Below, piece after piece: positions 1 to 20,741 of a stretch of DNA of 30,340 nucleotides. The notes beneath the pieces are model-generated. The model did not search any database, had not been told where the DNA came from, and worked only from the letters and a program-made list of their open reading frames with translations. This DNA is from a virus. Numbering within the stretch: position 1 is the first letter of the stretch; each line of letters opens with the position of its first letter. Both the position numbers and the translations under genes were made by a program. The stretch lies in the IMG/VR virus record IMGVR_UViG_3300028024_000192, positions 1-30,340 of that record; one strand, 5' to 3'.

Positions 1-1923
1 TCAGCGTTGAAGCGGCGCCTTCTGACGGACACCGAGAGCGGAAGACTGGCCTACAAGCCCAGAAGCACCCGCCGCGACATCCGCAAGGGCTGACCTCTGC
101 TGGGCAGTCATCTTAGCGATGATGGCCTGCGATTCTGGAGCCTGTGGGTTGGCGATAACGCCAGCCAGCTTGGCCTTGATTGTGTCGTTGGTGCCGAACA
201 GCTTGTACAGCGTGTCGAGAGGCCGCAGGACGGTCCCAAGAAGCCCGCTGTCGGCAAGGCCAGGCAACCCCAGCCCGTTAGCTGCCTCACCCAATAGATT
301 CTGACTGGCGAGGTTCTGGACGGTATTGGAGCCTGCTGACTTGCCCACCGAGTCTGCTACAGCCTGACGGCTAAGGTCGTCGCCAATGGTGCCGAGTAGT
401 CCCTACTGCTGCGGAGAGAGAATCTTAGCTGCCTGCGCACCCTTCTGGCCGGTAACCTTCTGTGCAATCTGGTCAAGTTGTGAGAGTGAATTGTTGAACG
501 TCGTTGGTGCGGCAACTTGATTTCCAAAGGCATCCTTATTGCCCTTCTCGACCTTGGCGAGTAGCCCCTGAAGGATCTGCTACTGGTTGATGGGTCCGCT
601 AGCCGCTTTATAGGCATCCTTGGCAGCGATGTAGTCCGGGGCAATCTTGCCAATCTCACCAATGAGGTCGTTCTGAGTTTTTTGCACAGACGCCTTCGAC
701 ACATTCTCAAACCCCGGCTTACCTGCCGAGTTAGCGATATTGTCTAGAGCCATTTTTACGTAATGGAGCCCCTGCGTAGAGCTAAGCGCGTCGCCGATAT
801 CCTGATCGTTTTCTGCGGCAAGGCCCTTCGCCATATCCACCGCCTTTTGCATGGATGGGCGTTCGGCCAGCTTCAAAAGATCCGGACTAGGCTGGATGGG
901 AGCATCCGTCACTGCCTGCGAGTAAAGCTGGTTCGCCGTTTGGGCGCGTGCCGCCTTAGCCGCTGCGACATCTGCTGGCGTACCCGCAGCGGCATCCAGA
1001 AGTCCGATGCGTGCCTGGTTGTTGCCAAGCCTCTGTTCGACGAACTGGTTCGCAATAGCGGGGTCGCTATCGGAGACGGCACGACGAAGCTGTGCAATTC
1101 CGGGGTTGCCCGTTTGCTCGGCGAGGTCCGCATTAACCCCCGGAACGGCACTAGGCGTCGCCCGCTTGGCAGCGTCACCACCGAAGCGACTCAGGGTATT
1201 GGCTACGATCTGATCCTGTCCACCATCGAAGAATGGGGCCAGCAATCCCTTGCCGGCACGATAGGCAGCACCAACCACGTTAGACGCCGTCTGGCCCAGA
1301 AGGCCAGCTCCCGCACCGATGCCCGTATTCAGGGCGCGACTACCTTCACCCTACCCCGTCGCAAGCGGCTGTACGGCACCCATGACTGCGCCTGTGGCCG
1401 CTGCGCCGCCGTAGCCTGCCGGTACTACGCTACCAGCCACACCGGCGCCTTTGAGCAGCGTACCGCCGAGTAGGCCGAGGCCGACGTTTCCAGCTATGGC
1501 TCCGGCTAGACCAGCCTTGGTATGCATAAGGGGCGCATCTGTGGCGTTCGTATCCGCCTGGTCTGCCTTTAGGCTGTCGTATGCGCTAGAGAATGGCTTT
1601 GGAGCCCAGTCAGGAGCGAGGCTGTGTCGCTCCAAAAAGGCAGGTATAGCGATTGCGGCCTATTTTGCGCCACGAATTGTATCAAGGGTTGTTTTCCCAG
1701 CCGCTGCTCCGAAGTTCTGAAGGTCTGTCCCAAGTCCGTTAGCTGCCGGTGCTCCGTTATCCGGTGCATTCGCATCGATCAGATGATAGAGGCCAGCCTT
1801 TTTGTAAAACTCCGTGGGATCTGCGTCTGGGTAGTATTTCTGGCGGATGGCGGACGCCAGCTTACCATCCGGAACATCGGCATATTGTGGGTACTGCTGT
1901 CGAATGTCATCGAGTATCGTCAC
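1..1923 (-). CDS. Putative ejection / internal virion protein, amber-recoded (4 TAG)
   Basis: Seen: a 640-codon frame opening at GTG 1921-1923 (GTGA overlap with the preceding gene) and ending in TGA at 1-3. It is broken only by TAG at 1660-1662, 1351-1353, 580-582 and 403-405 (residues 88, 191, 448, 507). The N-terminus carries IRQQYPQYADVPDGKLASAI and a KKAG motif, a start common in large podophage virion proteins. Residues about 105-185 are Gly/Ala-rich and hydrophobic and could cross or insert in a membrane; the rest is mostly helical and Gln/Ala-rich. It is the last gene of the structural block, after other tail/ejection-type genes. Inference: a protein ejected with the DNA. The exact function is not recognised. 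Without TAG read-through it would be four or five fragments with no plausible starts. Confidence 0.75.
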
Positions 1924-3338
1924 AGGCCAAGTCCAAGCGGGTCTTTCTGATTGAGGTTGATAGTGCCTCCGCTAACTGCCGGAACAGACGGTGATGCGCC
2001 ATCACCACCTGAGAACTTGTCAAACAGCTTTTTGGCCCTCGGGTCGATGACCTGAATACTCTTGGAGCCGTAGCCTAGGGCCTGGTCAGCCTGATCCTGT
2101 AGAGCCTGTAGACGGCCTAGGACAAGCTTCGCAGCCTCCTGGTGTGCAGCCTTGAGTGCATCATCGCCATTACTGTCGGCGAATATTTGGCGATTGTGTT
2201 CACGGTCACCTAATGCGCTATTGCCACCTGCGAAAGTCTTTGCTAGTTCATCACTTACCGCACTGGAAGCTACATCGAACTTAGATAGCTTGGCTTGTCG
2301 ATCACCACCAATCTTTTGCGCATACACATTCATCGGTCCGTTAACCAGCGAAGAATTAGTGTTTCCTAACTGGTCAATGGTTGTGCCGAACTCGTCAAGA
2401 TGGTGAGCAAGCGTGTTCAATGACTTGATCTGCTCGCCTATCTTGCCAGAGGTAAAGTTCTGGCGAGCAGCGGCACGTGCCTTGTAGGTTCCGGCGTCAA
2501 GCGTCGGGTCTACCTGCTGGGCCACAGAAATAAGTCGCTGCCAATTAGGGTCCATGGCCTGCTTACCGGTGGGGACTGGATAGCGACCGTCAACGATGGC
2601 CTGAACACTGGCCTTGTCGGCAGGAGACAGGGAGTCCATTGTGGGAACGGCGCTCGTGTCTGCACCACCAATGCCAAGCGCACGCTTCACATCGTCATCC
2701 GTGCCGCCGTACTGCTTGATTAGGGCAACTTTCTGGGCGAAGGCGGACGCAGCCGACTGCTGAGGTGCAAATCGTCCTGCTGTAGCGATGGTCTTGTACG
2801 TCCCGTCCGGCTGCAATTCCTGGGTGACCTTGTTGTTACCCACATCGAGTTCACGAGTCGGGGCAATGCTGAGGTCACGCTGACCCTTCTGGATAGCCAA
2901 TTGCTGGGCTTGGGTCTGAAGCTCGTTCTTATGGAGTTCAAGAGCGGCCTCCGGGTCAATCCCCGCAAGCTCCTGTGCATAGCCAGCCTGGTCGAACACA
3001 GGCTTTCCATCAGGTCCCTGTGTGACGTGCTTCAGGGCCAAATCCTGAATCTGCTGGCGACGCTGCATCTGTTGCTGCTGATCCTGCATCTACGCTTGCT
3101 GGAACTGCATCTGCTGCTGCTTGAAGCGGTCCTGCACAAGCTGCTGTCCGCCCTACTGGGCTGACTGGATGCCGCCGAGTAGGCCGCCCGAGATCGCCTG
3201 AAATGGACTGACGCCCGGCTGAGAGTTTGCCGATAGGATGGAAAGACCAGCATTGAGAAGGCCCCCATTCGCCAGTGAACTCTTGTCGCTGTCGCTAAGT
3301 CCGGGCTGATTGCCAGTGAAAATATCCTGCCATGCCAT
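1920..3338 (-). CDS. Putative ejection / internal virion protein, Gln-rich, amber-recoded (2 TAG)
   Basis: A 472-codon frame from ATG 3336-3338 (TAATG overlap with the upstream gene) to TGA 1920-1922. TAG codons at 3153-3155 and 3090-3092 (residues 62, 83) lie in an extreme Gln-rich stretch: the first follows IQSAQ and precedes GGQQLVQD, the second lies between QFQQA and MQDQQQQMQ. This is some of the clearest local evidence that TAG means Gln here. The N-terminus (MAWQDIFTGNQPGLSD, then LLNAGLSIL and a Gly-rich helix) followed by a Gln-rich coiled coil and a long helical C-terminal part resembles podophage internal/ejection proteins. Function is inferred from position and composition only. 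Confidence 0.75.
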
Positions 3339-3727
3339 TATCGCATGCTCCCGAGAAGGCCGAGTCGAGTGTTACCGCCGATGTAACCCGATGCCCCTTG
3401 CTGGACCTGACCAAGCTGCACGGCACGAGCACGAGCCTGAAGCGGCGACTGGGTTGGCATCGTTCCCTGCGTCGGCTGAGTCGGTCCCATGCTTAGTGGG
3501 CTCGATGCCTGCGGTTGCTGACCCGGATATTGAGCCTTTTGAAGTGCCCACTGGCCGATCTTGGAGAAATCGAGTCCCTGCGTAGCGGCAGATTGTGCCT
3601 AGCCACCACCGAGTACCTGGCTGTAGTCAGTGGTTGGCTGAAACTGCTGGTACTGTTGCATCGGTGCTGCGGCCTGAGCGTTGGCGTTAGGTCCAGCCAG
3701 GCCAGAAAGAAAGTCGAAGGTTCCCAT
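3338..3727 (-). CDS. Small virion-associated protein, amber-recoded (1 TAG)
   Basis: A 129-codon frame from ATG 3725-3727 to TAA 3338-3340, which overlaps the next start as TAATG. TAG at 3599-3601 is residue 43, in the context VLGGG-TAG-AQSAATQG. It is Gln-, Pro- and Ala-rich with no membrane segment and no domain I recognise. It sits between two ejection-type genes and is probably a virion component. Because of the TAG it has no long uninterrupted frame and would be missed by standard-code gene calling. Confidence 0.65.
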
Positions 3728-3736
3728 ATGTCCGCC

Positions 3737-4702
3737 TTAGAGGTAGTAACCAGCCGCACCAACGATGCCGCCACCGATTGCGCCAATAGCCGTACCGATA
3801 CCCGGGACTACGCTTCCGATTGCCGCGCCGGTGGCGGCACCTCCTAGTGCTGAAGTGGCGGCACCACCAACAGTACGGGGCTTATAGGCCGGGTTAGCTC
3901 CAGTCGTCGCCGATCCAGCAAAGTTTCCAGAAATCGAGTTAAGCGCGTTGCCGTAGTTCGCAAGCTGTTGCTGACCGTAACCGTAGTTCTTCTGATACCA
4001 GTCGTTGTAGTCCTGATTGATACCGCCCTGGTTGTAGTCCTGATAGACCTGTCCAAGGTTTGCTAGCTGGCCGTTGTACTGGGCCTGTAGGGCACTTGCG
4101 CCGTTTAGGGCATTGGATGCGCCAAGGATGTTCTGGCTGTTGTTCTGCGATGCCGCTAGCTGGTTCTGGAAGCCCTGCTGCCAGCGATCCGCCTGGTTGT
4201 TGTAATCGGTATAGCGCAGGTTGTCCGTGTTCGTTGCAAGGCTCTGTGCGAGCTGCTGCTGGCTGGCCGTAGACGCCTGCTGCATGGCAGACCCACCGAA
4301 CGCACCGCCCTGTGCGAACTGGGTCGGAAGCTGTACGCCCGCACCCTGAAGGTACGAGTTGGTGATATCCCGGTTGGAGTCACCGACGACCTTGTCAAGG
4401 TACTGGTTCGGACCAGCATACGGGCTAGCCTGAGCGGCGACATTCTGACTTCCGCCGACAATATTGTTGAGCGCCGCCTATTGACCGCCATTTCCCAGCG
4501 CACCCCAGTAGGAGTTGACGGTGGCAAGTTGCTGCTGATCTGAAGGTGCTGCGTTTAGCTGACCCTGGTAGGACTGGTAAGGAAGTGCGTTCTATGCCTA
4601 TGTCTGGTTGATGAACTACGTATAGTCCTGGGTCAACCAGGCCGGAAGTTCCGTCTTGGTCGTGGTGGTGGTGTTCTTCGGGGTGCTGCTTCCGCCGCCC
4701 AT
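3737..4702 (-). CDS. Putative ejection protein, Gln/Asn-rich with Gly-rich C-terminal membrane segment, amber-recoded (4 TAG)
   Basis: A 321-codon frame from ATG 4700-4702 to TAA 3737-3739, with TAG at 4616-4618, 4598-4600, 4592-4594 and 4478-4480 (residues 29, 35, 37, 75). Read as Gln the N-terminus becomes LTQDYTQFINQTQAQNALPY, which blends with the surrounding Gln/Asn/Tyr-rich sequence. The C-terminal 45 residues alternate Gly/Ala with hydrophobics (GTAIGAIGGGIVGAAGYYL), a glycine-zipper-like membrane segment of the kind seen in phage pore or DNA-ejection proteins. Position among virion genes supports this. The precise role is inference. Confidence 0.72.
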
Positions 4703-4703
4703 A

Positions 4704-5141
4704 TCAGTTGACCTCGTACCAAGAATGAAGTTTCGTGGCGTAGCGCTCGGGCCAGCCTTCCTGCGGAGTTGCGAATACCAGTCGCTCGAAGCCGGCTGCT
4801 TGCTGGACAGCTTTTGAAATCTCGATGCCGTAATGCCCCGTAGTCGGCTCTGTCGTATAGCCGAGCCACAGGTTCAGGGCGGGCATTTTTTCGTATGGGA
4901 ACATGTGCGGAACGACGATAGAGAAACCGGCATACTCGCCCGACACCTTGTTAACGATATAGGCGGCAGCATGTCCCGATACAAGCGCGTGATAGACATC
5001 CTCGGCAATGTAGGGCTCGTGGTTCGTCTCTATGATCTACCGAATGCCAGGCGAAATAATGGGCCATGCGGACCGGATATCGGCCACGTATGCATAGTTC
5101 ATCATGCCGTCTGAGGTGGTGCCTGCGAGTTGAGGAAGCAT
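4704..5141 (-). CDS. GNAT-like or internal core-type virion protein, amber-recoded (1 TAG)
   Basis: A 145-codon frame from ATG 5139-5141 (TAATG with the gene upstream) to TGA 4704-4706. TAG at 5037-5039 is residue 35, giving ISPGIR-Q-IIETNHEPY. The body (AAAYIV, then GFSIVVPHM, LNLWLGYT, and IEISKAVQQAAGFERLVFAT) has the beta-helix-beta rhythm of small phage proteins with a GNAT-like fold found among podophage internal core genes. No acetyl-CoA loop is certain, so enzymatic activity is not claimed. Confidence 0.6.
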
Positions 5142-5446
5142 TAGTTGCCTGTCAGTGTGCGTACGGGTAGCCAAGTGCCGGGAGTGCCGGCTACGGTGCA
5201 GCGCCATCCGTGAACGAGATATTTCGATCCTGCCGTGCCTAGCTCGGAAGGCGCCGAGTTCAGTACGAAGTCACCCACAGCATTCTGTCCCTGCGTTGGG
5301 ATTGTCGGCTGGGCGTTGTAGACCGCTGCCGCCCTTCCCTCGGTGATCAAATTGACCTACGTGGCCGTTAGCCTATAGAGGTCTGACAGCCGAAGGACGA
5401 GCTACTGAAGGTCGCCAGGAAGCGTGGGATTCTGCTGAAGCTTCAT
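5141..5446 (-). CDS. Conserved small tail-region protein, amber-recoded (2 TAG)
   Basis: A 101-codon frame from ATG 5444-5446 (ATGA overlap with the gene upstream) to TAA 5141-5143. TAG at 5402-5404 and 5357-5359 are residues 15 and 30. Read as Gln they give GDLQQLVLRLSDLYRL and TATQVNLITEGR. From memory of this podophage family the motif before the EGR turn is usually written QVN or QIN, so residue 30 falls on a conserved Gln. The C-terminus (NSAPSELGTAGSKYLVHGW, then GTPGTWLPVR) is typical of a short structural protein next to the tail/stabilisation gene. Enzymatic role: none expected. Confidence 0.68.
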
Positions 5447-6900
5447 TCGGGTGTCGTCGGCATGATTTCAGGCGTATATCCATTGATGACCACCGTACCC
5501 GTCCAGTCCATGCGTATGCGGTGCCAGCGAGCATCCCTGTGGAAGTCGAATCGTCCGTTAGTTTGGGGGATCGTTGAGTCCTGAACCGGTGCAACACCGA
5601 AGTCGTAGCGGTAGAAGTTAGTGCCTGTAGCGGCAGTCGGGCTGGTTCGATAGCGAGGCGTGACGCGTCTAAGAAGGGAGTAGTTCGTCTCGTCGCCTAT
5701 ATCACCGGTGACGATATAGGATGCACCCGGAACACCTGTCAGGCTGTAGAGCTTATGGTCCGTGCTGATAACCCCCGGAACCGTGTTGTCGGCGATCCAG
5801 AACGGCGAGTCATAGGCGATATTTGGCAGGTTGTCGTAGGTGCTATAGAGCGTTCCAAGACCATCGTATGTGACGTTCCCCGACGAGTACTGAATCACCG
5901 CCTCGATGGACCGGGCGAACTTCCCCCATTGGTTCGTGCGGATGTTGTAGACCACGCACAGATCACAGATGCCGGTAGATGCCGTGCTAGGGAAGTACCA
6001 ATACACCAGATCTCGCGTAAGGTCTGCGCCGCCCTTGATATTCGACCGCTGCGACCCGTTTAGGTTGGTGAAGAACCACTCGCGGATCGGGGCACCGATG
6101 GACCTTGGGACCGTACCGTCGTAGACGAAGAAGTCATTCGGTCCGACGAAGAAATGGCTCGCGGCCACGACCACGACCGCCTCTTGACCGGAGCAGCCAA
6201 TCTCGCCGGGAATCCTCTGCCACTGCCATATAACCGGTGGGCCCGCGAACTGGCCTCGGTACATGGATTTCTCCTTGTAAGCCACCACATCAGCGCCGAA
6301 TTCACGAGCTGCGGTGATTGGGCCCGGAGCATCTACCAAGCGCCCATTGGCCGCCTGAGATCCGACTGTGGGTGTCCAGGCCGTCTAGTCGAACAGGTTT
6401 GAGCACCACCATCCGTCGGGCTGATCACCGTAGCTTCCCGTTTGGTCCGACCAGTTAAAGGCCATGACGAAGTTGGATGCTGAGCAGATGATGGCGGCAG
6501 CGGGTGCTGTTGGGATGTCGGCGAACACTCCCGAGGGGGCAGCCTACTGAATACGCTGCGCACGGTTGGTCGCCAGGACATTGCTTCCGAACATGGTGAA
6601 TCGCCACGGAGAAAGCCCTGTATAGGCTCCAGCCACTCGTGTACGGTCCACCCACGCTCCGCCCGATATATCCCAAAGCTTTGCTGTCGTACCAGCTACG
6701 ATGCGCTTAGTGCCGTCTAGCAACGTGCCAACGTAGGCACCCTTGCAGGCGCTATCCAGTGCGGCAAGGCCAGCGTCAACGAGGCTATTCCCCGCTGCGA
6801 ATCCTTTGGTCGTCGGGATGATGTTATCGCAATCCACGATAACGCCCGGTGTCTGTGGATCGGTGTCCGGACCAAAGCCAATGAAGGGAGTGGCACTCAC
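5443..6900 (-). CDS. DNA-stabilisation / tail stopper-type structural protein (P22 gp10-like), amber-recoded (2 TAG)
   Basis: A 485-codon frame from GTG 6898-6900 (GTGA overlap) to TGA 5443-5445. TAG at 6544-6546 and 6385-6387 (residues 119, 172). The pattern is that of podophage tail stoppers or packaged-DNA stabilisation proteins: an N-terminal trimmer-like segment, then DGWWCSNLFD-TAG-TAWTPTVGSQ, PGPITAAREFGADVVAYKEK, a GPPVIWQW stretch, and a beta-rich C-terminal half with repeated aromatic turns (WQRIPGEIG, FFVYDGTVP, WGKFARSI). It lies directly after the head-tail adaptor gene, as expected. The assignment to the P22 gp10 class is inference from motifs and position. Confidence 0.7.
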
Positions 6901-7499
6901 GGCGTCTGAATATCCATGCGCTGACGTGGAGACGGTGAGTAACGAACGTAGTCGTCCTGCTTCTGAAGACCCGCAAGTGCCGTCTGATAGCCAACGCCAA
7001 ATAGCTGCGTGCGGGAGTCGTCACGCATGTATACCGATGCCTCCAAGAGCGTGGCGTATAGGTAGAGGCTCGGGTCGTCCTGAATGAGCCAGTTCTGGGT
7101 ATTCGTCGTCGATAGCGAAGGTACGCCCGCGAAGTAAACCATGCGGTAGCTATAATCGTCGCTTCCTATGACGTTCAGGGTGTTATTGGTGATGTAGTAC
7201 CCGGTAGGACATACACGGTTGTCGCCGTTAAGCGACTGCTAAGGTGGGACTGGATCAAGCTCACGCTCGTACCCACCGAAGCTGATGATGAATGCCTGCA
7301 TCTGCCGAAAGTCGGAGGGCAGCGCTACCTATCCGCCCACGGTGGTTCCCGATAGGACGGTTTGCTGCGGAGCCGTACGAAGGTCTCGATTGATCCTCGT
7401 CTCGGCAAGCTGAATGAAGTCAGGGATGCGCGGTGCCAGGTCGGCACGAGCAAGCCAGTTTGTTACGGCAGCCTGCAAGGAGGCATAGTCGTTAATCAC
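6897..7499 (-). CDS. Head-tail adaptor protein (SU10 adaptor-like), amber-recoded (2 TAG)
   Basis: A 200-codon frame from GTG 7497-7499 (GTGA overlap with the upstream gene) to TGA 6897-6899. TAG at 7329-7331 and 7239-7241 (residues 57, 87), in contexts TTVGG-TAG-VALPSDF and LDPVPP-TAG-QSLNG. The order FIQLAETRINRDLR, VALPSDFRQM, SYRMVYFAGVPSL, WLIQDDPSLYLYATL and a C-terminal helix is the signature of phage adaptor proteins that dock on the portal ring. Position between coat region and tail genes agrees. Confidence 0.75.
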
Positions 7500-7795
7500 T
7501 TGTTGCCTACCCGGCCCTGGTACACGCGAAACGGAGCGTTCTGCGGGTCATTCAGAAAGTCGGCCTGAACCTGCGGATCGCGCATGAAGTCACGCCACAA
7601 TACGCCCTTACGGTTGCACCAGTCTTCGCAGATCCACGCGTCCACATGGGCGAGAACCTTGATGTCCTCATCACCTGTCTAGCCGGCCTCACGCTGCTCA
7701 CGGCAGGCGTCGGCGAGCTGCTTGATCTGGCTCGTCTGCACGATGGCATAGTCAACCATCGTCTTGTTATCGACTGCTACGAGTTGGCGTTCCAT
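7496..7795 (-). CDS. Small structural-region protein, amber-recoded (1 TAG)
   Basis: A 99-codon frame from ATG 7793-7795 to TGA 7496-7498, with a GGAGAG ribosome binding site 6 bases before the ATG. TAG at 7679-7681 is residue 39 (EQREAG-TAG-TGDEDIK). The N-terminus MERQLVAVDNKTMVDYAIVQ and an acidic/aromatic C-terminal half (DWCNRKGVLWRDFMRDP) do not match a family I can name. It lies between coat protein and adaptor; a head-completion or decoration role is possible but not shown. Confidence 0.6.
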
Positions 7796-7812
7796 GTGTC
7801 TCTCCGTAAAGT

Positions 7813-7836
7813 GGGGAGAGGCCGAAGCCTCTCCCC
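7813..7836 (-). promoter_or_regulatory. Strong UUCG hairpin after the coat gene
   Basis: Perfect 10-bp stem (GGGGAGAGGC paired with GCCTCTCCCC) closed by a TTCG tetraloop on the transcript strand, 19 bases after the coat protein stop and 18 bases before the next start. There is no T-run after it, so it is unlikely to be a simple terminator. It may protect or process the coat mRNA or lower downstream expression. Confidence 0.6.
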
Positions 7837-7854
7837 GTTGCTAAGCTGACCGTA

Positions 7855-8853
7855 TTAGTTACCGGTCGCCGTCAGATCACGCACCGCGGCCAGGGTCGAT
7901 TCCTGGCGAACCACGAGCGTGACTTCCGTACGGATCTGCCAGTTCTTGGCATCACCGGTCGTCGCAAGCTGTTCGGATTCGAACGGACGGAGCTGACCTA
8001 GGGCCAGCTTGTCGAAGTCGACCAGGTAAGCCGTGTTGATGAGGCCCGCCGAGCCCGCACCCATGACGCGGTTCGGGACAACCTTGCTGACACCGAAGTC
8101 GTGACCATAGAACGTGAACGCGGTCTGGACGATGACGTCATTCGGGTTGAGCGACTTGGAGACACCGCCCTACATGGCGACCTCGTTGGTACGCTGGACA
8201 GCCGCACCGAAGGTGGAGAACTTCGCCTTGTGGGCCGGGCTGACCAAGAACACCGCCGCGTCGCCACCGTTGCTGTACGCACCGAGGATGACGGCCTTGG
8301 CCGAGGCTTCCACGAACGGACGCAGCGTACCCAGGGTCGGGGCCGTGTTCGTCTGCGGGTTGGGAGCCACGCCACCGACGCCGAAGTCGTTGTTGGTCGC
8401 TACGAAGCCGTACAGGCCACGCATCTGACCAGCGACACCGGAAGTTCCGGTCACCGAAGCACCGTTGCCGATGGCGGCAGCCTCGATATCGCGCTTGAGT
8501 TCGACCATTTTCTTGGTCTTCAGGCGGGCGATTTCCGAGCTACGACCGTACTTGCGAACCGCCTCAGCCGTATTAGACACCGAAAGCGTGTCCTGAATGA
8601 TCTGGGTGCGGTTGTTGTACTGACCCGGCTGGGCCTACGCGGCGTAGGTCGCATCCGCACCTTCGATGGAGGCATTGGAGGCGTTCGGCGAGCGGTACGT
8701 GTCGGCAGTCCACTCGTCGAACACGTTCTCGACCTTGATACGGTCGATAGCCGAGGTCAGCGGGGAGTCCGAAGGACGGAAGTTGTAGATCTTGTCCTCG
8801 ACGTCTTCCGCAACGCGGATGACACTCGGGGTGATAAGGGTATTTGCGGGCAT
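7855..8853 (-). CDS. Major capsid protein (SU10-like, DUF5309 family), amber-recoded (2 TAG)
   Basis: A 332-codon frame from ATG 8851-8853 (AGGA site upstream) to TAA 7855-7857. TAG at 8635-8637 and 8170-8172 (residues 73, 228): contexts ATYAA-TAG-AQPGQYNN and NEVAM-TAG-GGVSKS. Family features: an N-terminal MPANTLITP arm, NVFDEWTADTYR, NNRTQIIQDTLSVSNTAEAV, then KTKKMVELKRDIEAAAIGN, matching the DUF5309 / SU10 coat fold in order and length. The scaffold gene lies directly upstream. Two ambers in the most abundant virion protein mean suppression must be efficient late in infection. Confidence 0.85.
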
Positions 8854-8870
8854 TTCAGTTTCCTAAGAGG

Positions 8871-9890
8871 TTAGATGCCGCGCTCAAGGGCGAAACCGGC
8901 CAGCGCATCCAGGGAATTAGGATTGCGTCGGTAGTTGTCGGCTGCCTTCATAGCGCCAGCGGATTTCTCGGGCTTTCCAGCCGTGCCAGGTTTGACGGGT
9001 TTTGCCGGGATCGCCGGGGGTTTCGTCACTTCCGTGGCTTTGGCCTTCGCAGCCTGTGCTTTGTCCCAGAGAGCCGCCTTGCGGGCGACGATCAGGGCAC
9101 GTGGGTCAATCAGTTCTTTAAGCTCGTCATGGGTGTAACCCGCGTCTACGAGCGCATTGGCGATATCCGTCGATTCCGCCTTACGCTTGCCGGGGTCTTT
9201 CCATTCGGGGAGGCGATCCAGCAACGTTTCCTCCGCCAGTCGAAGCGATTCGGCGCGGGCTTTCGCCTGCTCGTTGATCGCGTACTCCTGCGTGGCCTGT
9301 CGGTGGGCCTCAATCTGCCCAAGAAGGGCCTGTCGCTGTGCCATCTGCTCTTTGACACGCAGATAGCCGTGCGGGTCCGTCTCAAGCAATCCTGCAAGCT
9401 TCGCCTGATCACCAACGTACTCCTGATAAAGCGCTGCCCCGAGCACATTTAGCGAGTTGACTCGACTTTCGAGTTCCTGCTTGACCTGTGCCCGCTCAGC
9501 CTGCGCCGCTCGGGTTAGTTCCGCTGCCTCTTGCGTCTTGCGTGTGTAGTCCTGCTGCCGCTGGTAGCCATTGATGGCCTCTTCGAGGGTGATTTCGTGC
9601 TCTTCACCCTGGATGCTCACCTTGACCTTCTTGGCCTTCCAGCTTTCGTCCTCGTTGGTCTTGTCGGTGTCCTTTGCTGAATCGTCTGTGGCCTCGTCAG
9701 CGGCTTTCTGCACTTCTTCCGTGTCTGCGTCCGTATCTTCGTGGCCCTCCTGGCTCTGATCGCCTTCTGCGCCCTCCTAGGCGGCCTCGTCCTTCTCGCT
9801 CTCGTCCATCATTCCAGCGATATCAAGCAGGCTGTGCTCCGTTTCCGGTTGGCCGCCCTCGTGTGTAAGCTCCGTTTCCGGTTGGCTCAT
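8871..9890 (-). CDS. Capsid scaffolding protein, amber-recoded (1 TAG)
   Basis: A 339-codon frame from ATG 9888-9890 (GAGG site upstream) to TAA 8871-8873; TAG at 9777-9779 is residue 38 (SEKDEAA-TAG-EGAEGDQ). The composition is typical of a scaffold: a strongly acidic, disordered N-terminus, then long charged helices (EHEITLEEAINGYQRQQDYT, LLDRLPEWKDPGKRKAES), and a basic Pro/Lys-rich C-terminal tail near residues 280-310 that could contact the coat protein. It directly precedes the major capsid gene. A 16-base direct repeat at 9837-9852 and 9870-9885 encodes a duplicated QPETE at the N-terminus. Confidence 0.8.
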
Positions 9891-9905
9891 GGGGTAAATC
9901 CTCAG

Positions 9906-10226
9906 TTACTTGGTGACGGTCTGCCCATCGCTCAGGCGGACCTTGAATGTGCCACGCACAACAGGTGCGGAGCCGTAGATGCCGATAAAATAGTCGGGTC
10001 CGTCGCAGGGGATAGACACGGCCGTCAGGGAGCGAGGCTTGTATCTGTCCTCAATCGCGTTCAGAAGCCCGTAGCACTCTTTCCAATTCGATGGGCTATC
10101 GTCGCCCTGGCAAGCTTCCCGCTCTCCATCACGGATGCCAGGTGCTGTTCCAGACGATCCAGAATCTTGCTCGACAACCACAACTTTTCGCGGCCTTCCG
10201 CGTCTCTTGCCGGTGAGTTGCGCCAT
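9906..10226 (-). CDS. Small protein overlapping its upstream neighbour
   Basis: A 106-codon frame ending in TAA 9906-9908. If it opens at ATG 10224-10226 (GGAG about 12 bases upstream) it overlaps the 3' part of the preceding gene by 166 bases in another frame. The N-terminus holds an AT-hook-like RRGRPRK; the C-terminal half (SLTAVSIPCDG, YFIGIYGSAPVVRGTFKVRL) is beta-rich and looks genuinely coding. The first half may instead be an accidental frame, with the true start nearer 10064, where only a CTG is available at the upstream stop. No amber. Function not recognised. Confidence 0.5.
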   Translation of the reverse strand: MAQLTGKRRGRPRKVVVVEQDSGSSGTAPGIRDGEREACQGDDSPSNWKECYGLLNAIEDRYKPRSLTAVSIPCDGPDYFIGIYGSAPVVRGTFKVRLSDGQTVTK

Positions 10227-10333
10227 TGGGTTTCAATCTCCGAGCGTACGGTGTCGAATGCCTCGCGATAGAGAGCATCCTCAAGGATGGCTTTCGCCTG
10301 GTGGCCTCGCTGGTCTTCTTTCTCAGGCGTCAT
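10061..10333 (-). CDS. Conserved podophage protein downstream of portal
   Basis: A 90-codon frame from ATG 10331-10333 to TGA 10061-10063, with a textbook AGGAGG 9 bases before the ATG that decides the start. It overlaps the end of the portal gene by 11 bases. The sequence (RGHQAKAILEDALYREAF, ETQWRNSPARDAEGREKLWL, then two further helices) is an all-helical small protein often seen beside portal and scaffold genes in this type of phage. No amber. Molecular role unknown. Confidence 0.75.
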   Translation of the reverse strand: MTPEKEDQRGHQAKAILEDALYREAFDTVRSEIETQWRNSPARDAEGREKLWLSSKILDRLEQHLASVMESGKLARATIAHRIGKSATGF

Positions 10334-12572
10334 TTTCGTGTGCCTCCTGATAGTCCGCATCAGCCGACGCCGTGCTGGCGTCCTTCGCGCCCATAGCTTT
10401 AGCTGCGAGGATCTTCGCCTCGGCGTTGATGCGAGCGACTTCGATGGCGGTCTGGTGAGCCAGTTGGGCCTTAGCCATCGCGAGCTGGTACTCAAGGCTG
10501 GCCTTCTCTCTTGCAAGGGTCATGTCGCTTTCTGACTGAAGCTGATTGCGCTGGGCCTCAAGCTGCGTCTCCTGCTGAGACTGCTGAGCCTGATACGCCT
10601 GCTTCATGCGCTCGACTTCCACATCGCCCTGCTGCTTCTGAGCCTGCAACTGGCCCTGCTGCTGCAACTCGGCCTGCTTGATCTGAGCGTTGGCCTGGAT
10701 AGCGGCCATCTTGTGGGCATTCGGGTCAGGCGCTTGCGGAGGCGGCTGACTGGGATCGGGGGCTGTGAAGTACCGGCTGACGTCGGTCTTGCCGAGGGCT
10801 GCGGTGAGGTCTTCCAGCGTGTTATAGGCGTTCTGCGGGACAGTGAGACCGTATTGACCCGCCTGCTGCTGGATCTGCAAGAGCTGCATGGCCTGGGCCA
10901 CCTGCACCTGCTTGGACTGCGTGCCGATGCCGACCGATACCACCATGTCGTAGTTGTTGGCCCACTCGCGGGGATCGACGGCGAGCCACTGGCCGTTTAC
11001 CTTCACCTGTTCCTCGCGATCCTGATATTGCGTGACCATCTTCAGGATGAGGCGATACAGGCGCTTGATGCCGGTCTCGGCGAACACGCGGGCAAGAAGC
11101 TTCTGGCGGGTTGCGGCCTGGTCCATGAGCTGGCTAACGCCTTCGGAACCAATGTTCGACTTCGACAGCTCGTTACCCACTAGGCCCTGACTGAATTCCT
11201 TCACGCCAGTGCGTCCGTCGCGGACGTTCTTGAAGTACTCGATGCCCTGCATGGCCTGGGCGGCGATGGATGGCACCGTGACCTCGCGCATCATTCCGGA
11301 CTGCTTGACCCGAATCGCACCGCCCGGAACCGGGTTGAGAAAGTCGTCTAGGTTGACCTGTCCTTCCACGATCTCGGTGCGCGGCGTGTTGGACAGGTAG
11401 AAGTTGTCCAGCATCTGGCGGTTGATCGCCGTCATGATCCGCTGGAGGTCTTCCACGAGGTCGTAGAACGACATACCGACCAGCTTGTAGGGCATCAGGA
11501 TTGGGGTAAACAGGGCGAACGGGTGATCTTCTACAATCTCATTCTCGAAGACGACCATTCCTGCCTTGACGATGCGCCGGTACTCGGCAATCCCATCCTT
11601 GTCGAAGTCGACCAGCATGTACGCCTCGGTCAACGTCACCTTGCGCTGGCTCTTGTCGGCAGGATGGTCGTCGTAGCTGTTCACGCCATCGTAGTCGCCG
11701 CGTACGGACGCCTCAGAGGAGGAATTCGCACGTTTGTCCTCGTACATGGACTCAACCTTTTCCTCGTCGTAGCCCATGCTCAACAGGTCGGACTTGGTGC
11801 GCTCCACGTCGTGGCCGATATAACGGACCTTCTCGATGTCCCGCGAGTCCTTGGAAATGGTGATTTCCTCGGGAGGCACACCACAGACGACGAACTTGTC
11901 CTTGCGCTGCTTGACACGAACCGTGACGTCATAGGTAGGCGGAGCGGGCTGAAACTGACCCGGTGCCACCTCTACGGGCTGAGCGTCCGCCTATGGGGCG
12001 CTGGCTGCGACTGAGACGACCTCCATCGAGTCATCGCCCTTGATCGCCTCAAGGTCCATGTCCGACTGGTTGGTCAGCTTCTACTCGCGGACATCCCACG
12101 AGCGATCACAGTAAGCCTTGACGACGCCCATACGGGTAATCAGAGACGACTTGATGGCGTCGTGCAGGATGGTGAACCCAGGGTTCTTGCGATGCAGGAC
12201 GTAGCCGCAATACCGCGTGGCGTCCTTGCAGTTCTTTTCCTCGGACGGACCTGAAGGCTCAAAGGCCACGACATCGTCTGTGGAGGCGAACATTTCCATG
12301 AGACCAGGCATCGTCCACTCGACGACGTCCATTAGCTCCTTGGAAACGACACGACTGCGACCCTCTACCTCGGGCGGGGCAAGCTCACCTACGGCCTCGC
12401 CCTGGTAGTAGGACATCGCACGCTCGCGGTCCGTCTACATCTTGTCATTGAAGCCGATGCCGTTCGTGCGCTCACGGTCGATCAGGGCGCACAGCTCACC
12501 ATCCGACATCGAGCCGCCAGTGGCTTCGTCGTCCGTGTCACCCAGGATTTCGTCGTACGGGTCAGTTTTCAA
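10323..12572 (-). CDS. Portal protein, amber-recoded (3 TAG)
   Basis: A 749-codon frame from TTG 12570-12572 (TTGA overlap with the terminase stop, which picks this start) to TGA 10323-10325. TAG at 12435-12437, 12081-12083 and 11991-11993 (residues 46, 164, 194). Contexts: NDKM-TAG-TDRERAMSYYQGE, WDVRE-TAG-KLTNQSD, SAAP-TAG-ADAQPVE in outline. Family features are RERAMSYYQGE near the start, MEMFASTDDVVAFEP, the clip/wing region, KDGIAEYRRIVKAG, PILMPYKLVGMSFYDLVEDL and a very long Gln-rich C-terminal coiled coil (about residues 600-735), probably the barrel. It follows the large terminase, as in most podophages. Confidence 0.85.
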
Positions 12573-13825
12573 GCGGTGCCCATTTTCTTGTAGGTGAGTT
12601 TCGTCTTGTCCCAGCTATCGTTAGAAAGCTGCGGGGCGACAACATGCATGTATCGGAAGGCGTCGGCACCGTGGCTGTACTGGTCGTGCAACGGAGCGCC
12701 AGGCTCGCCCGTCGATAGCGGCAGGGAGCGCCTGTAACGCTTCAGGCACTCGACCAGCGGGCCAGTCTTCGCCTTGTCGAAGTAAACCTGTGCAAACTGC
12801 CTGCGAGCGAGACGGATGCCTTCCTCGACGCCCAGCTTCGGGACAATGATCACGTCCCAACCAAGCTCCTGCATGATCTCCTGCGAGGACTTTCCGGTCT
12901 TGAAGTCCCGGTTCTCGCCATCGTGGGGGAGGCATACCTTGCCCCAGTTGTACGGACGGGTTTTGAGTTCCGTCGAGTACCAGTCCAGAGTCTTGTGGTT
13001 ACCCTCGATGTACTCGATAGCCCTAAGCTGGCTTAGATGCTTCTACACGAGAATAAGCGTCATCTGGTCGTTCCAGCCAAGGTCGAATACCACATGGACC
13101 TTCAGGGCTGGATCGTAGGGAACTTCGCAGATGCGGCTAGGTGCAGCTTCCCTGGCGCTTGCTATCTCGTCAGCGTAGATCGCACCGGAGACGGCAGGCA
13201 GGCAGATGCCTTCCCATGTGTGGTCGTACTCTGCCTTGGTCAGCATTTCCTTGTCGCGAAGCCGCTCGGCCTCAAGGATGCCGTTGAACCACGGATTGTC
13301 TGAGTAGTTCATCTTCACGACAAACGAGTCTTCGGGAGCATTCTCCACGAAGCGTACGAAGGTCGGGTCAGTGTCCAACTCCGGGTTGAACGTAATCCAG
13401 ACTTCGGAGCCGTCCTTGCGGATGGTCGGTATCAGGATCTTCCAACTCCGCTCCGTGATGGCCTGCGCTTCCTCGCACCAGACGATGTCAACGCCCTCGT
13501 AGGACTTCACGGACTCGGCGGTCTATTCGCTCAGTCCGGCAAAGGTGATCTCCGTGCCGTTGATGCCCTTGATGACCGTTGCCTGGACCTCGTAGAACGC
13601 ACCCAGACCCATTGAGGCTATCTGGTCGCCCAGGAGCTTGTGTACCGAGTCCTTGATGGACTTCTGGATCTCTCGGGTACAGAGGATACGCAATGGCCTC
13701 TGAGCGCCCTGCAGGAGCAGCGCGCGGGCGTAACCCCAAGACTTGCCGGAGCCTCGCCCGCCGTATGCCACCTTGTAGCGTGCTGGCTTGAAAAGTCCCT
13801 CTAGCTTGTCAGGGAACTCGATCAT
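12569..13825 (-). CDS. terL: Terminase large subunit, amber-recoded (2 TAG)
   Basis: A 418-codon frame from ATG 13823-13825 to TGA 12569-12571. Walker A GGRGSGKS at residues 22-29, Walker B DIVWCEEA at about 113-120, and the nuclease-domain DLGWND before residue 255. TAG at 13523-13525 (residue 101) gives AGLSE-Q-TAESVKS; TAG at 13043-13045 (residue 261) gives MTLILV-Q-KHLSQLR. In phage terminases of this family both sites usually carry Gln (GLxxQTAxSIKS and the Gln after the ILV/FFF strand), so they are strong evidence for TAG=Gln. The enzyme packages DNA into the prohead with the small subunit encoded just upstream. Confidence 0.9.
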
Positions 13826-14117: not shown

Positions 14118-14363
14118 TTAGACATTGGGTTCAATCGTCGGCCACCAATCCTCTGTGACCTATTCGCCAGTGTCGGCGTTGATGTAAATGGCGGCGGCTG
14201 TTGGATTCGAACCAACGTTGGCAGCGGTTAAGCTGCTGGATGGTTTAGAGCCATCCCCCTTCGGCCCCTCGGGCAAACCGCTCTTGAAAATGCGCTCCCA
14301 GTTATCTGAGAACGTCTGTTCGTCCACGCTCAGAGGACGACGGTCATCGCCCTTTCCGCTCAT
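14118..14363 (-). CDS. Small phage protein with an embedded suppressor tRNA, amber-recoded (1 TAG)
   Basis: An 81-codon frame from ATG 14361-14363 (ATGA overlap) to TAA 14118-14120. The first 28 residues (SGKGDDRRPLSVDEQTF, then NWERIF) look like a small protein common near phage terminases. Residues about 28-58 are simply the translation of the tRNA at 14189-14282, which keeps the frame open. After it come IYINADTGE, a TAG at 14160-14162 (residue 68), and VTEDWWPTIEPNV, which looks coding. So the gene appears to have received a tRNA in frame, or the tRNA has been kept in frame. Cutting out the tRNA would destroy the message. Whether protein is made is unknown. Confidence 0.6.
14189..14282 (-). 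tRNA. Amber suppressor tRNA, anticodon CTA, long variable arm
   Basis: Seen on the minus strand: acceptor AGCGGTT pairing with AGCCGCC (A1-C72 mismatch, T6-G67 wobble), discriminator G73 and encoded CCA. The D-stem is CCC/GGG, the anticodon stem GATGG/CCATC with loop CTCTAAA (anticodon CTA, T33, A37). The variable arm is long, GCAGC/GCTGC, and the T-arm is GTTGG-TTCGAAT-CCAAC. All arms pair well, so I judge it functional. The anticodon reads UAG. The body is class II (Ser/Leu type). G73, G2-C71 and an open 1-72 pair are known glutaminyl-tRNA synthetase preferences. It lies in the late operon between spanins and terminase, so it would be made with the genes that need it. Confidence 0.9.
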
Positions 14364-18132: not shown

Positions 18133-18569
18133 CAGTCCTCCCGATCCGCCAAAGGCATGGAGTAACCAGCCACTGGCGTGTGGTCGTGCTCGGCCTTTAG
18201 TACCTCGTGAAGCATCCCCGACGCGTTGAACAGGACGGCGCAAAGGTTCTCGACCAAGCCGTCCGGCGTCTCTATACCCTTGCTCTCTTCCCACACGGCG
18301 AAGAAATGCCGCCAGAGGGACTTCATGTAGACATCGCGGGCAATGCCCAGGGTCCAGTTGTCCGAGGCCCTTAGAGAGCCATCTGGGAGCTTCCGGTGGG
18401 CGTGCATATAGTCGGCGTACTGGCGAAGAACGAGCGGGCTCAGAAATCCATCAAAGTCCAGCTTCCCAGCGTCCGTATCGCGAGTCGCACCTGTTGAGAA
18501 CTGGCGAATCTCCGCCTCAGTACCGACCAATCGGCTACTGCCATCCTGATTGAAAGTCGCACGAATCAT
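18132..18569 (-). CDS. DUF5664-type protein (dATP/dGTP diphosphohydrolase N-terminal-like)
   Basis: A 145-codon frame from ATG 18567-18569 (GGGGG upstream) to TGA 18132-18134. Characteristic words are RQFSTGATRDTDAGKLDFDG, FLSPLVLRQYADYMHAHR, NWTLGIARDVYMKSLWRHFF and a final helix (NLCAVLFNASGMLHEVL). This family occurs in many phages and is related by name to nucleotide diphosphohydrolases, but the catalytic C-terminal domain is not fused here. No adenylosuccinate synthase-like gene for modified purines is seen in the window. No amber. Confidence 0.75.
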   Translation of the reverse strand: MIRATFNQDGSSRLVGTEAEIRQFSTGATRDTDAGKLDFDGFLSPLVLRQYADYMHAHRKLPDGSLRASDNWTLGIARDVYMKSLWRHFFAVWEESKGIETPDGLVENLCAVLFNASGMLHEVLKAEHDHTPVAGYSMPLADRED

Positions 18570-18666
18570 ATGACCCCCGATAGGTCGGTTTTAGGGTGCC
18601 GGTGCCCTGTATCGGGCAGGGCGGGCTATACGCCTCGACCGGCATAAATGGCGGAAGGTTAAGGAG
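18570..18666 (-). other. Intergenic spacer holding a tRNA-Ser 3' end fragment
   Basis: 97 bases with no gene. It holds a 6-bp hairpin (18604-18622) and, at 18651-18667, a 17-base copy of the tRNA-Ser 3' end found at 19066-19082. Here the copy is followed by an intact CCA (18649-18651), which the complete tRNA lacks. Confidence 0.7.
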
Positions 18667-18667
18667 T
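18651..18667 (-). repeat. Direct repeat of tRNA-Ser 3' end, copy 1
   Basis: GCGGAAGGTTAAGGAGT on the plus strand, identical to 19066-19082. It contains the 3' acceptor strand, G73 and part of the T-stem of tRNA-Ser. The pair encloses the HNH endonuclease gene, and the copy overlaps the first base of that gene's stop codon. Confidence 0.8.
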
Positions 18668-19035
18668 TACCTTCCCGTACGAAGATAGTGTTCGCGACGC
18701 TTCTGTGGAGTCCAATGTCGAGATTTTGACGCCTTATCCCTTAGAACCCTCTGCTCATGGGTGAACTGCTTAGCTCTACCCTTTCCACCGGCGCTGTAGT
18801 TGCATGATTGATGGCTAAACGCGATGTTATTTAGATCGAAAAACAGATCCACCGCATTGCCTGAATCTATCCAGGGCCGGATATGCTCCACGCTGAAAGA
18901 TTCTCTTGTAAGCTCACCACCACAGCGATAACACAGGTGCCCAGCCGACTTAATGAAAGCAAAAAGCAAGTCCGATCTGAGCCTGTTAGCCGCTGTGCTT
19001 ACATTCATGCCCAACTGTAGCGAACGCTTATCCAT
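18667..19035 (-). CDS. HNH endonuclease (homing type)
   Basis: A 122-codon frame from ATG 19033-19035 (GGGGG site 6 bases upstream decides this start) to TAA 18667-18669. Zinc/HNH pattern: Cys35 and Cys38 (CYRCGG), VEHIRPW (His51), LNNIAF (Asn70), then HQSC (Cys78). It is a free-standing HNH nuclease lying immediately downstream of tRNA-Ser and flanked by 17-base direct repeats of that tRNA's 3' end, which marks it as a likely mobile insertion. No amber. Confidence 0.85.
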   Translation of the reverse strand: MDKRSLQLGMNVSTAANRLRSDLLFAFIKSAGHLCYRCGGELTRESFSVEHIRPWIDSGNAVDLFFDLNNIAFSHQSCNYSAGGKGRAKQFTHEQRVLRDKASKSRHWTPQKRREHYLRTGR

Positions 19036-19065
19036 GACTGCCCCCAAGGCGTCTACAGATGAAAT

Positions 19066-19082
19066 GCGGAAGGTTAAGGAGT
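19066..19082 (-). repeat. Direct repeat of tRNA-Ser 3' end, copy 2
   Basis: Same 17 bases as 18651-18667, here forming the 3' end of the complete tRNA-Ser gene. The base context after it reads GCA instead of GCCA on the minus strand, so the encoded CCA is broken at this copy. Confidence 0.8.
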
Positions 19083-19150
19083 CGAACCCTTACGGTTTCC
19101 CGCAGCACGGTTTTCAAGACCGCTCGCCGGCCAACCCAGCGCAACCTTCC
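19067..19150 (-). tRNA. tRNA-Ser, anticodon TGA
   Basis: Minus strand: acceptor GGAAGGT/ACCTTCC with G73, D-stem CGC/GCG, anticodon stem GCGGT/ACCGT with loop CTTGAAA (anticodon TGA, reads UCA). The variable arm is TGCGG-GAAA-CCGTA, typical of tRNA-Ser. The T-arm has one mismatch at 49-65. CCA is not encoded. The 3' end is duplicated beyond the HNH gene. It decodes an ordinary Ser codon and is not a suppressor. Confidence 0.88.
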
Positions 19151-19199
19151 TAAGTGGTGCGGCACGACCGGGAACTCCCAATCCAGATGCCGGGTAAAT

Positions 19200-19278
19200 T
19201 GGAGCGGGTCAGGAGAATCGAACTCCGCGTTCTTCAGCTTGGAAGGCTGCTGCGCGCCCTTTGCGCTTGTTAACCCGC
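19200..19278 (-). tRNA. tRNA-Gly-like, anticodon TCC, atypical D-arm
   Basis: Minus strand: acceptor GCGGGTT/GACCCGC with T73 and encoded CCA, anticodon loop CTTCCAA (TCC), T-loop TTCGATT. Weak points are the 27-43 and 49-65 mismatches and an irregular D-arm, where the only good stem is GCGC/GCGC five bases after the acceptor stem. It may be functional with a strained structure or be decaying. Its 5' end directly abuts the 16-bp stem of the neighbouring structured RNA. Confidence 0.65.
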
Positions 19279-19615
19279 ATAGGTTTGCTGTCAGTCGTGG
19301 CCGTTAAGCCACTAGCGGGTGGTGTGAGGCCCGCATCAGATCCACAGCATGAGATCTACAGCAATGAAAGTTTTCAGGTGTTCGCCGGCCTGAGCACCGG
19401 AAGCATCTGACAGCAAACCTATACAGGTCACGGTTACCGTTATCCGTGTCGTCCCGCCAGACGAGGCCCTGCCCTTGCGGCAGTAATCCCGGCCTCTTTC
19501 TGGCTGTGCGGCGACTACCGTTCGATGAACGGGCCCGCAGAGGCTTAGCCGGGAATCTCAGGCGTTTAATCCGCCCTCGTGTGGATTTGACCATGCGAAA
19601 ATTCGATGGTCACAG
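19279..19615 (-). ncRNA. Candidate large structured RNA next to tRNAs
   Basis: 337 bases without a credible gene, dense in perfect stems when read on the minus strand. A 16-bp stem (19407-19422 with 19279-19294) encloses hairpins AGATC/GGATCT, GCGGG/CCCGC and GTGGC/GCCAC. Upstream lie TCCCGGC/GCCGGGA closing CCGTTC-ATC-GAACGG, then CTGCC-GCAA-GGGCAG (GNRA-type loop), TCGTC/GACGA and GACCAT/ATGGTC. The location between a possible late regulator gene and tRNA genes resembles that of large ornate phage RNAs (GOLLD, ROOL), but I do not see sequence identity to them. Function unknown. Confidence 0.6.
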
Positions 19616-19888
19616 TCAGGGCGTTGATTGAAACTCGTCTACGATGTGTAGCTGAAAGCCTCCCCATCCCTCACTCAAGTTGTATTTCCCTGGGTCCTCG
19701 CTGGCCAATAGGGCCAGAAGAGCCTCCGGCTCGCCGTAATTGAATTCTGGATAGGGGTGGCTGTAGCCTGGTACTTTCTCACCTACGTAACTGCGCAGCA
19801 TGTCCATGACAGCGTCCCGATTAGTTGTAGCCTTAACGTCCTCAGCGCCATACTCGTCATAGTTGCTTAGAATGTAGATCCGGCTCAT
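19616..19888 (-). CDS. Hypothetical acidic protein
   Basis: A 90-codon frame from ATG 19886-19888 (ATGA overlap) to TGA 19616-19618. It starts with a beta strand (MSRIYILSNYDEYG), then a helix (RDAVMDMLRSYVG) and an acidic, Tyr/Pro-rich C-terminal half ending in WGGFQLHIVDEF. No family recognised. It is the last gene of the early leftward operon before the RNA zone. Confidence 0.68.
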   Translation of the reverse strand: MSRIYILSNYDEYGAEDVKATTNRDAVMDMLRSYVGEKVPGYSHPYPEFNYGEPEALLALLASEDPGKYNLSEGWGGFQLHIVDEFQSTP

Positions 19889-20376
19889 GCGACAGCCCTC
19901 GTTGCTCGCAGTACGTGGTGGTACTGGTAGTGAAGCTCGACGGTGTAGTTCTTTAGGCCCTCTGACATCATCGTGGTCAGTTCGCCTCGGATCTTCAGGT
20001 AGGTGGCGTGGTGGATGCCAAGGCGGCGTTCAACCTCGCGGGCAAACTCAGCGTGGCGACCGAAGACGATGAACTCCAGGGCATCCACGCCGGCTTGCGA
20101 AACCCAATCGTTCCTACGCCCCCTAGGAGCCACTACAGCCTGTCCGTTAGTCTTCCGGGTACGAGTGTGCTGCCTAGCCATGCCGATAGCCCACGAGGCT
20201 AGCTGGCGGTCGTATACGGTGTCGCCACGAACCACTCGGCTGTAGAGTTGCCAGCCGGGGTAATGGGGATCAAACAACTTCGCCGTCCGGTTCGCCGCAT
20301 CAATGCAAGCGTCCGAAAGTTCAGGCATCGCGAATGCCTCGTCCGTATCGCGGCCAATGATGTCGTGGGTGGTCAT
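19885..20376 (-). CDS. Possible Q-like late regulator (uncertain)
   Basis: A 163-codon frame from ATG 20374-20376 (ATGA) to TGA 19885-19887. The C-terminal part (ALEFIVFGRHAEFAREVERR, LGIHHATYLKIRGELTTM) reads like a helix-turn-helix: a helix, LGIHHATY as turn and recognition helix. Its place at the far end of the replication/nin-like genes, before tRNAs and the lysis cassette, is where lambda-like phages carry antiterminator Q. Sequence similarity to a named Q family is not clear to me, so the role is inference from position and a possible HTH. No amber. Confidence 0.55.
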   Translation of the reverse strand: MTTHDIIGRDTDEAFAMPELSDACIDAANRTAKLFDPHYPGWQLYSRVVRGDTVYDRQLASWAIGMARQHTRTRKTNGQAVVAPRGRRNDWVSQAGVDALEFIVFGRHAEFAREVERRLGIHHATYLKIRGELTTMMSEGLKNYTVELHYQYHHVLRATRAVA

Positions 20377-20741
20377 TTAGCCACCTTCGGTACGCTGACC
20401 TTTGGCAACGTGACCGGTTCGCCCCAGGTCTGGAAATACTTCGCTCCGATCTTTACAAAATCGACCTTATTCACCGGCTGACCACCCGATGCTGCATGGG
20501 CCTGCTCGCATGTGTGGAAGTATTTAGGCGGACCGGGGACTTTCTTTTTATATGCCGTGTTACCCAGGCTGAAGATTCCATCCCTTAGCTTCGGTGGTAT
20601 ATAGTCCGGGTTGTCGATTTCTGGGTAGGTCCTATAGAGACTAGTGAGTGATGCCTTTCCAACTACCTCGACGATCTTCTCAACCTCGACGATCTTATCA
20701 ACGATTTTCTCAACCTCTACAACCCTCGTAAAAAAACTCAC
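20373..20741 (-). CDS. Hypothetical protein with N-terminal Val/Glu/Lys repeat
   Basis: A 122-codon frame from GTG 20739-20741 (GTGA overlap decides this start) to TGA 20373-20375. Residues about 8-25 repeat the pattern VEVEKIV three times, encoded by near-identical DNA repeats at 20660-20720, and probably form a coiled coil for oligomerisation. The rest (YPEIDNPDYIPPKLRDGIF, YKKKVPGPPKYFHTCEQA) is polar and unrecognised. No amber. Confidence 0.65.
   Translation of the reverse strand: MSFFTRVVEVEKIVDKIVEVEKIVEVVGKASLTSLYRTYPEIDNPDYIPPKLRDGIFSLGNTAYKKKVPGPPKYFHTCEQAHAASGGQPVNKVDFVKIGAKYFQTWGEPVTLPKVSVPKVAK

Follow-up and report, generated by a model that had tools for sequence, protein, structure and literature searches.

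A conserved structured RNA beside predicted Q/AlpA-type antitermination genes of phages, a possible leader of late transcripts

The locus and its antiterminator-like gene

The locus lies in a phage record of IMG/VR that was analysed over its whole 30,340 bases (the window); the coordinates of the RNA given below are those of the window, minus strand. Its first member is a gene for a protein of 163 aa, here termed gene X (19885-20376), followed by an open reading frame of 90 aa without family match (19616-19888) and by a gap (19279-19615) in which an earlier note had proposed a large structured RNA. The gap is adjoined by a degenerate tRNA-Gly(TCC)-like sequence (19202-19278), beyond which are tRNA-Ser(TGA) (19066-19150, called by ARAGORN), an HNH endonuclease gene (18667-19047; phrog_23251, 6.9e-27, and PF01844, 1.4e-5) and a second structured element, M2 (18593-18645), all on the minus strand. 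The genes downstream of HNH encode a metallophosphoesterase and an HslV-like protein, then terminase and portal. In the relatives G003, G011 and G005, endolysin, spanin and holin genes lie within about 2.6 kb downstream.

The AlphaFold model of the window gene X protein (pLDDT 86) was aligned by VIA-align with Q-lambda (7ubm, Z 8.0), AlpA (7xya, 7.4), AlpA again (7.3) and Q-lambda again (7.2), followed by Orc6 at Z 6.3, values to be read with the tool's warning that Z below about 13 may be chance for helical folds. The two best Foldseek matches in the PDB were AlpA complexes, with E-values (0.08 and 0.10; the next 1.8) that are not significant alone, and the first-ranked of the viral models was named 'Antitermination protein Q'. 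A second AlphaFold model, of the divergent L174 copy (pLDDT 80), aligned with Q-lambda at Z 10.0, 9.7 and 7.0 and with AlpA at 6.8 and 6.5 (next row 5.4), and a named Q protein stood at rank 2 in the viral library. Since the two models agree on two Q-type proteins, and gene order points the same way, gene X is predicted to encode a Q/AlpA-type antitermination protein, the modelled structure showing the Q fold with a C-terminal helix-turn-helix. A gene family so far lacking annotation would thereby be assigned to the Q/AlpA fold. The window protein had no match in Pfam or PHROG, and gene X had none in the phages collection; the L149 copy gave weak matches to HTH_23 (0.0087) and phrog_36 (0.016). 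Searches with the two small neighbouring proteins gave no matches, and the 90-aa frame is missing from L004 and L031, where the RNA comes directly after gene X.

A conserved RNA core within the gap

The gap folds better than shuffled sequence on both strands (minus strand, z -4.45, equalled by 0 of 100 shuffles; plus strand, z -4.33), so the inverted repeats on which the earlier note was based are real. Single core sequences have minimum free energy z-scores of -0.02 to -2.3; minimum free energy by itself is weak evidence, and it is comparative pairing that carries the case for an RNA.

The DnaB helicase served as query for a scan that yielded 19 related loci, five of which show DNA-level likeness to parts of window 19618-19424, excluding a window domain with a 16-bp stem. 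The pattern of the P1 hairpin was found in 11 stretches, comprising five contigs already known, four new true members (L024, L026, L027 and L031) and two chance matches, L021 and L028, which were rejected as members, their R1 scores being not above chance. R1, a covariance model built from seven sequences, recovers ten contigs with 110-173 bits (173 in the window), while an eleventh, L299, with 91.4 bits, came to light only in a search with the protein. At least 119 stretches matched the pattern AGCCAGAAAGN{2,5}CGGGA, nearly all without further signs of the RNA.

The conserved core, P1-P6 (19429-19578, minus strand), consists of seven helices in about 150 nt and is present in 11 contigs, 10 of them distinct. 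Its 36 pairs are paired in 96.6% of cells, in an alignment whose fitting to its own model is a bias in favour of pairing, and pairing falls to 36.5-44.5% when the partners are slid. Double changes occur in 23 of the 36 pairs, with 66 double-change cells compared with 19.5 in shuffles. P4 (19469-19483, minus strand; five pairs, four double-changed), P5 (19449-19464, minus strand; five of five) and P6 (19429-19448, minus strand; three of five, loop AUAACGGUAA) are each 100% paired. A candidate pseudoknot would join the P5 loop, UGGCGG, to AGCCA in the internal loop, a loop pairing that is nearly invariant. P1 (19560-19576, minus strand; GGGCG/CGCCU, loop GAUUAAA) is 100% paired in 10 distinct sequences, and is so nearly invariant that it is weakly tested, with a single double change contributed by L299. 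In P3, pair 44-75 is an unpaired A.C in three distinct sequences.

The structured RNA described by the earlier note is therefore real and conserved, but its borders are those of the core and not of the whole gap. The 16-bp closing stem is present in the window, where the gap fold places it in a hairpin domain at 19279-19424 (minus strand), but the ten other core contigs contain nothing equivalent, L014 having about 60 nt in place of this domain. A 7-bp GC-rich closing helix (CGCCCT/AGGGCG) is not conserved and competes with P1, which is; its 5' strand is missing from L014, L027, L003 and L006. The hairpin described as GCAA-capped is P4, whose cap proved to be a GCAAN pentaloop on a covarying stem.

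Translation of 10 core copies showed that no reading frame, of the three, is free of stops in all of them. A coding reading was rejected: although L014 and the window share an open 96-aa frame (19304-19594), frames are broken in other core copies. Rfam at gathering cut-offs gave 0 matches in the window, none to GOLLD or ROOL, and a permissive Rfam search of the window gave only tRNAs and one chance mir-370. With no match to GOLLD, ROOL, group I introns or other Rfam 15 families, these were rejected as its identity, and the likeness to GOLLD and ROOL that had been drawn from the position of the gap is not supported. The gap holds a conserved structured RNA uncatalogued in Rfam 15, and the suggestion of a new RNA class gains from the covariation among homologues, which exceeds shuffles both in the core and in the P2-P3 module, and from the lack of a conserved protein frame.

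An element acting as DNA, for example as a folded single strand in replication or packaging, might likewise fold on both strands, and the strand signal is weak, since nine of the 16 G.U cells in the core (compared with five A.C cells) come from one pair. Such an element is nevertheless very improbable: unpaired loops are conserved, as in RNAs, and the RNA is in sense with gene X in 23 of 23 loci.

The wider P2-P3 module

The widely shared heart of the RNA is the P2-P3 module (19484-19555, minus strand), with the internal loop AGCCUCU / AGCCAGAA, which has a wider spread than the core, 25 distinct sequences being known from 27 loci. In viral sequences, 65 stretches matched the pattern GCCTCTRC..GCA(N)AGCCAGAA, some of them in other phages and with a new perfect P2 stem, and 46 matched a second pattern, in which the P3 bases were left free. 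P2 reached at least 7 bp in 17 of the 53 distinct viral matches to the first pattern (16 structural members with 7-10 bp, and L198 with 7) and in 11 of 38 distinct matches to the second (10 members and L234). The sequence-pattern scan of cellular genomes gave no structural member, P2 being at most 6 bp in 30 of 30 matches. P2 length is thus bimodal, dividing chance cellular matches from viral structural members. Synteny added L005, L015 and L018, and their 3' strand, AGCU(A/U/C)GAA, makes the module motif AGCYNGAA.

Model R2, to which the 27 members were aligned, gives the window 31.7 bits. The alignment is 91.2% paired, falling to 33-43% in slides, and has 54 double-change cells compared with 16.2 in shuffles; it is weakest at pair 19-84, which forms in only 8 of the 25 distinct sequences. 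The near-duplicates L027, L177, L200, L293, L304 and L310 are left out of alignment A11, as are L160 (10486-10564, minus strand) and L168 (1205-1250, plus strand), sites in other phages with a module-like internal loop and P3, no P2 stem, and R2 scores of 25.8 and 15.6 bits. L168 has a good sigma-70-like promoter 60 nt upstream of its module-like site. The idea that L008, L010 and L013 carry a 'permuted' module was not retained, as evidence for it was lacking.

In L148, L152, L196, L244, L015 and L306 the module is followed on its 3' side by an additional conserved element, which is closed by the stem CUGCAUC/GAUGCAG, includes GAGGUCGGG...CCCG and is perhaps another leader domain.

Association with gene X

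Gene X stands before the module in most records, and an HMM of seven gene X copies detected it at 23 of 34 loci with E of 3e-11 or below and at one with E 0.009. In a blind test, viral sequences were scanned with the gene X protein alignment only, and R2 was then applied to the 28 loci obtained. The module was found at 23 of these, in 23 of 23 cases downstream and on the same strand, at a distance of 58-582 nt, counted from where the tblastn match to gene X ends; the independent cases are fewer, owing to the near-duplicates L292/L293, L298/L304, L309/L310, L312/L313 and L315/L316. Fourteen contigs were already known, and the 14 new ones comprised nine with the module and five without (L312-L316), the latter carrying the most divergent gene X copies, at 37-41% identity. 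L008, L010 and L013, from the earlier set, also have gene X and no module. In L312, L313, L315 and L316, a tRNA with CTA anticodon occurs within about 450 nt after gene X.

The phages that carry the RNA beside Q-like genes have portal proteins that are sometimes only about 30% alike. In L149, L174 and L018 the module begins at most about 15 nt from the gene X stop, which leaves no space for a promoter between them. A recurring CTGACTGYGACNATCG-like stretch between gene X and the module (window 19600-19625, minus strand) is seen in about half of the members, and might be a protein-binding or promoter element.

tRNAs, recoding and the second element

The RNA is kept in the members and tRNAs occur in some members only. 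The position near tRNA genes, noticed at the outset in the window, is true of several phages, but it is the upstream gene of Q/AlpA type, and not a tRNA, that is the most constant neighbour. The gap does end at the acceptor stem of the tRNA-Gly-like sequence (19278), but this sequence is degenerate, with an Rfam score of 25.5 bits under a cut-off of 29, and was not called by ARAGORN. It is 92% like L014 over 84 nt, and L299 has a clear tRNA-Gly(TCC) at the equivalent place (2663-2736). A tRNA-Gly(TCC), intact or degenerate, recurs after gene X (L299, L174, L008 and the window). A blastn match to Burkholderia phage Mica was discarded as merely a tRNA-Gly-like stretch beside an integrase gene, as were those of L299 to named phages and plasmids, which among the matches listed all fall on its tRNA-Gly.

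The window phage looks TAG-recoded from its sequence. A tRNA with CTA anticodon is encoded at 14189-14282 (minus strand), the late genes lie at 1-13825 (minus strand), and long frames for terminase (12569-13825, two TAG) and portal (10323-12572, three TAG) are obtained if TAG is read through, with in-frame TAG also in the portal frames of relatives; DnaB and gene X contain none. Recoding of TAG, the CTA-anticodon tRNA and the adjoining of the RNA to tRNA genes in several phages raise the idea of a ribozyme or an element for tRNA maturation, comparable to the theta ribozymes that adjoin suppressor tRNAs in recoded phages. This seems quite improbable. Theta ribozymes are situated at the 3' end of tRNAs (PMC10879173) and cleave no more than 5 nt away from it; the core lies 5' of the tRNAs. 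A rough HDV double-pseudoknot descriptor matched the window minus strand at two places with C in J4/2, none of them in 19000-19700, and at two to four with other bases. Moreover, the members G002, G003 and G011 do not look recoded by coding coverage, for which reason recoding was also rejected as a condition for the RNA.

M2 lies 3' of the core in 10 of 10 core contigs searched; in the window, tRNAs and the HNH gene come between the two. It is 96.9% paired, with 12 double-change cells compared with 3.9 in shuffles. M2 is a three-helix RNA with the loop CCCGAUA, for which UAUCGGG, immediately ahead of the start codon at 18569, is a possible pairing partner. A second element set apart in this manner, together with the compact fold and conserved unpaired residues of the core and the tRNA neighbours in the window, L014, L026, L027, L174, L299 and L301, would suit a small RNA acting in trans, a leader set free by excision or early termination to function at another place, as has been suggested for GOLLD and ROOL. 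However, a promoter and terminator of its own were found neither in the window nor consistently in 24 leaders, and close synteny with one gene suits cis action better, so that trans action is regarded as a lesser, though appreciable, possibility.

A possible leader of late transcripts

The RNA is conserved, structured and non-coding, and stands 3' of a Q-like gene and 5' of late genes. On balance it is somewhat favoured that it is the cis-acting structured leader of a Q-dependent late transcript, with tRNAs inserted behind it; here we infer its transcription, the start of the transcript and action in cis. By analogy with Q proteins, the gene X product would be loaded onto RNA polymerase close to where gene X ends, and the loaded polymerase would then read on into lysis and structural genes. 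The first RNA beyond gene X would fold into P1-P6 around the conserved P2-P3 internal loop and would most likely act in cis, on its own transcript or the polymerase that made it. The folded 5' domain may set pausing, processing or stability where the late message begins, and the tRNAs and HNH gene would have been inserted behind this domain. In other phages, tRNAs can occur between the Q gene and the lysis genes.

No promoter-like or terminator-like sites were found in window 18300-20500. Across 24 leaders, promoter-like sites numbered 10 compared with 20.4 in shuffles and terminators six compared with 2.2; no common late promoter was found that might hold a Q binding element and a -10-like pause. 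L178 has a terminator between gene X and the module, and in L244 the module is immediately preceded by a promoter-like TATAAT site and an intrinsic terminator of 8 bp.

The strong terminator that precedes the module in L244, the immediate succession of Q-like gene and RNA at 23 of 28 loci, and the conserved internal loop and GNRA-like pentaloop could point to an RNA cofactor of antitermination, similar to nut or put. Nascent P1-P6 would then be a dedicated RNA partner that binds the Q-loaded polymerase, and late transcription would need both a protein nozzle and an RNA, joining mechanisms known only separately. This is considered unlikely, as RNA made past the L244 terminator could not act at that terminator. 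Furthermore, Q proteins are described (PMC9371919) as joining the polymerase while it is paused close to the promoter, with the help of elements in DNA and not in RNA, and as forming a nozzle that prevents terminator hairpin formation.

Comparison with known systems

By the tests made, the RNA is not GOLLD, ROOL or a theta ribozyme. GOLLD and ROOL (PMC12286853) are also structured phage RNAs, often near tRNA islands, but measure 659 nt or more compared with about 150 nt conserved here, and the most constant neighbour of the present RNA is an antiterminator gene. Theta ribozymes (PMC10879173) share the recoded phages and the tRNA neighbourhood, whereas the present RNA is 5' of the tRNAs and is not confined to phages that look recoded.

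Accounts of Q-type late antitermination usually invoke protein and DNA elements, and a covarying RNA associated with Q-like genes would make a leader-RNA role in late gene control directly testable. It also gives a sequence handle on late-operon borders in uncultured, partly TAG-recoded phages. A limited literature search, from which subscription journals were mostly missing, gave no title or abstract opening on a structured RNA after a Q gene. From the lambda pR' leader, no comparable conserved and structured RNA is known. The put and nut elements are structured nascent antitermination RNAs of phages; they resemble the present RNA, by description, in their phage antitermination setting, but are early-operon elements. 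The present locus, for which the search gave neither a common promoter nor a common pause element, differs in this from the leader of Q-dependent late operons (lambda pR'; AlpA-alpB, PMC9371919), but shares with it a gene of Q/AlpA fold immediately upstream and, in relatives, the lysis genes downstream.
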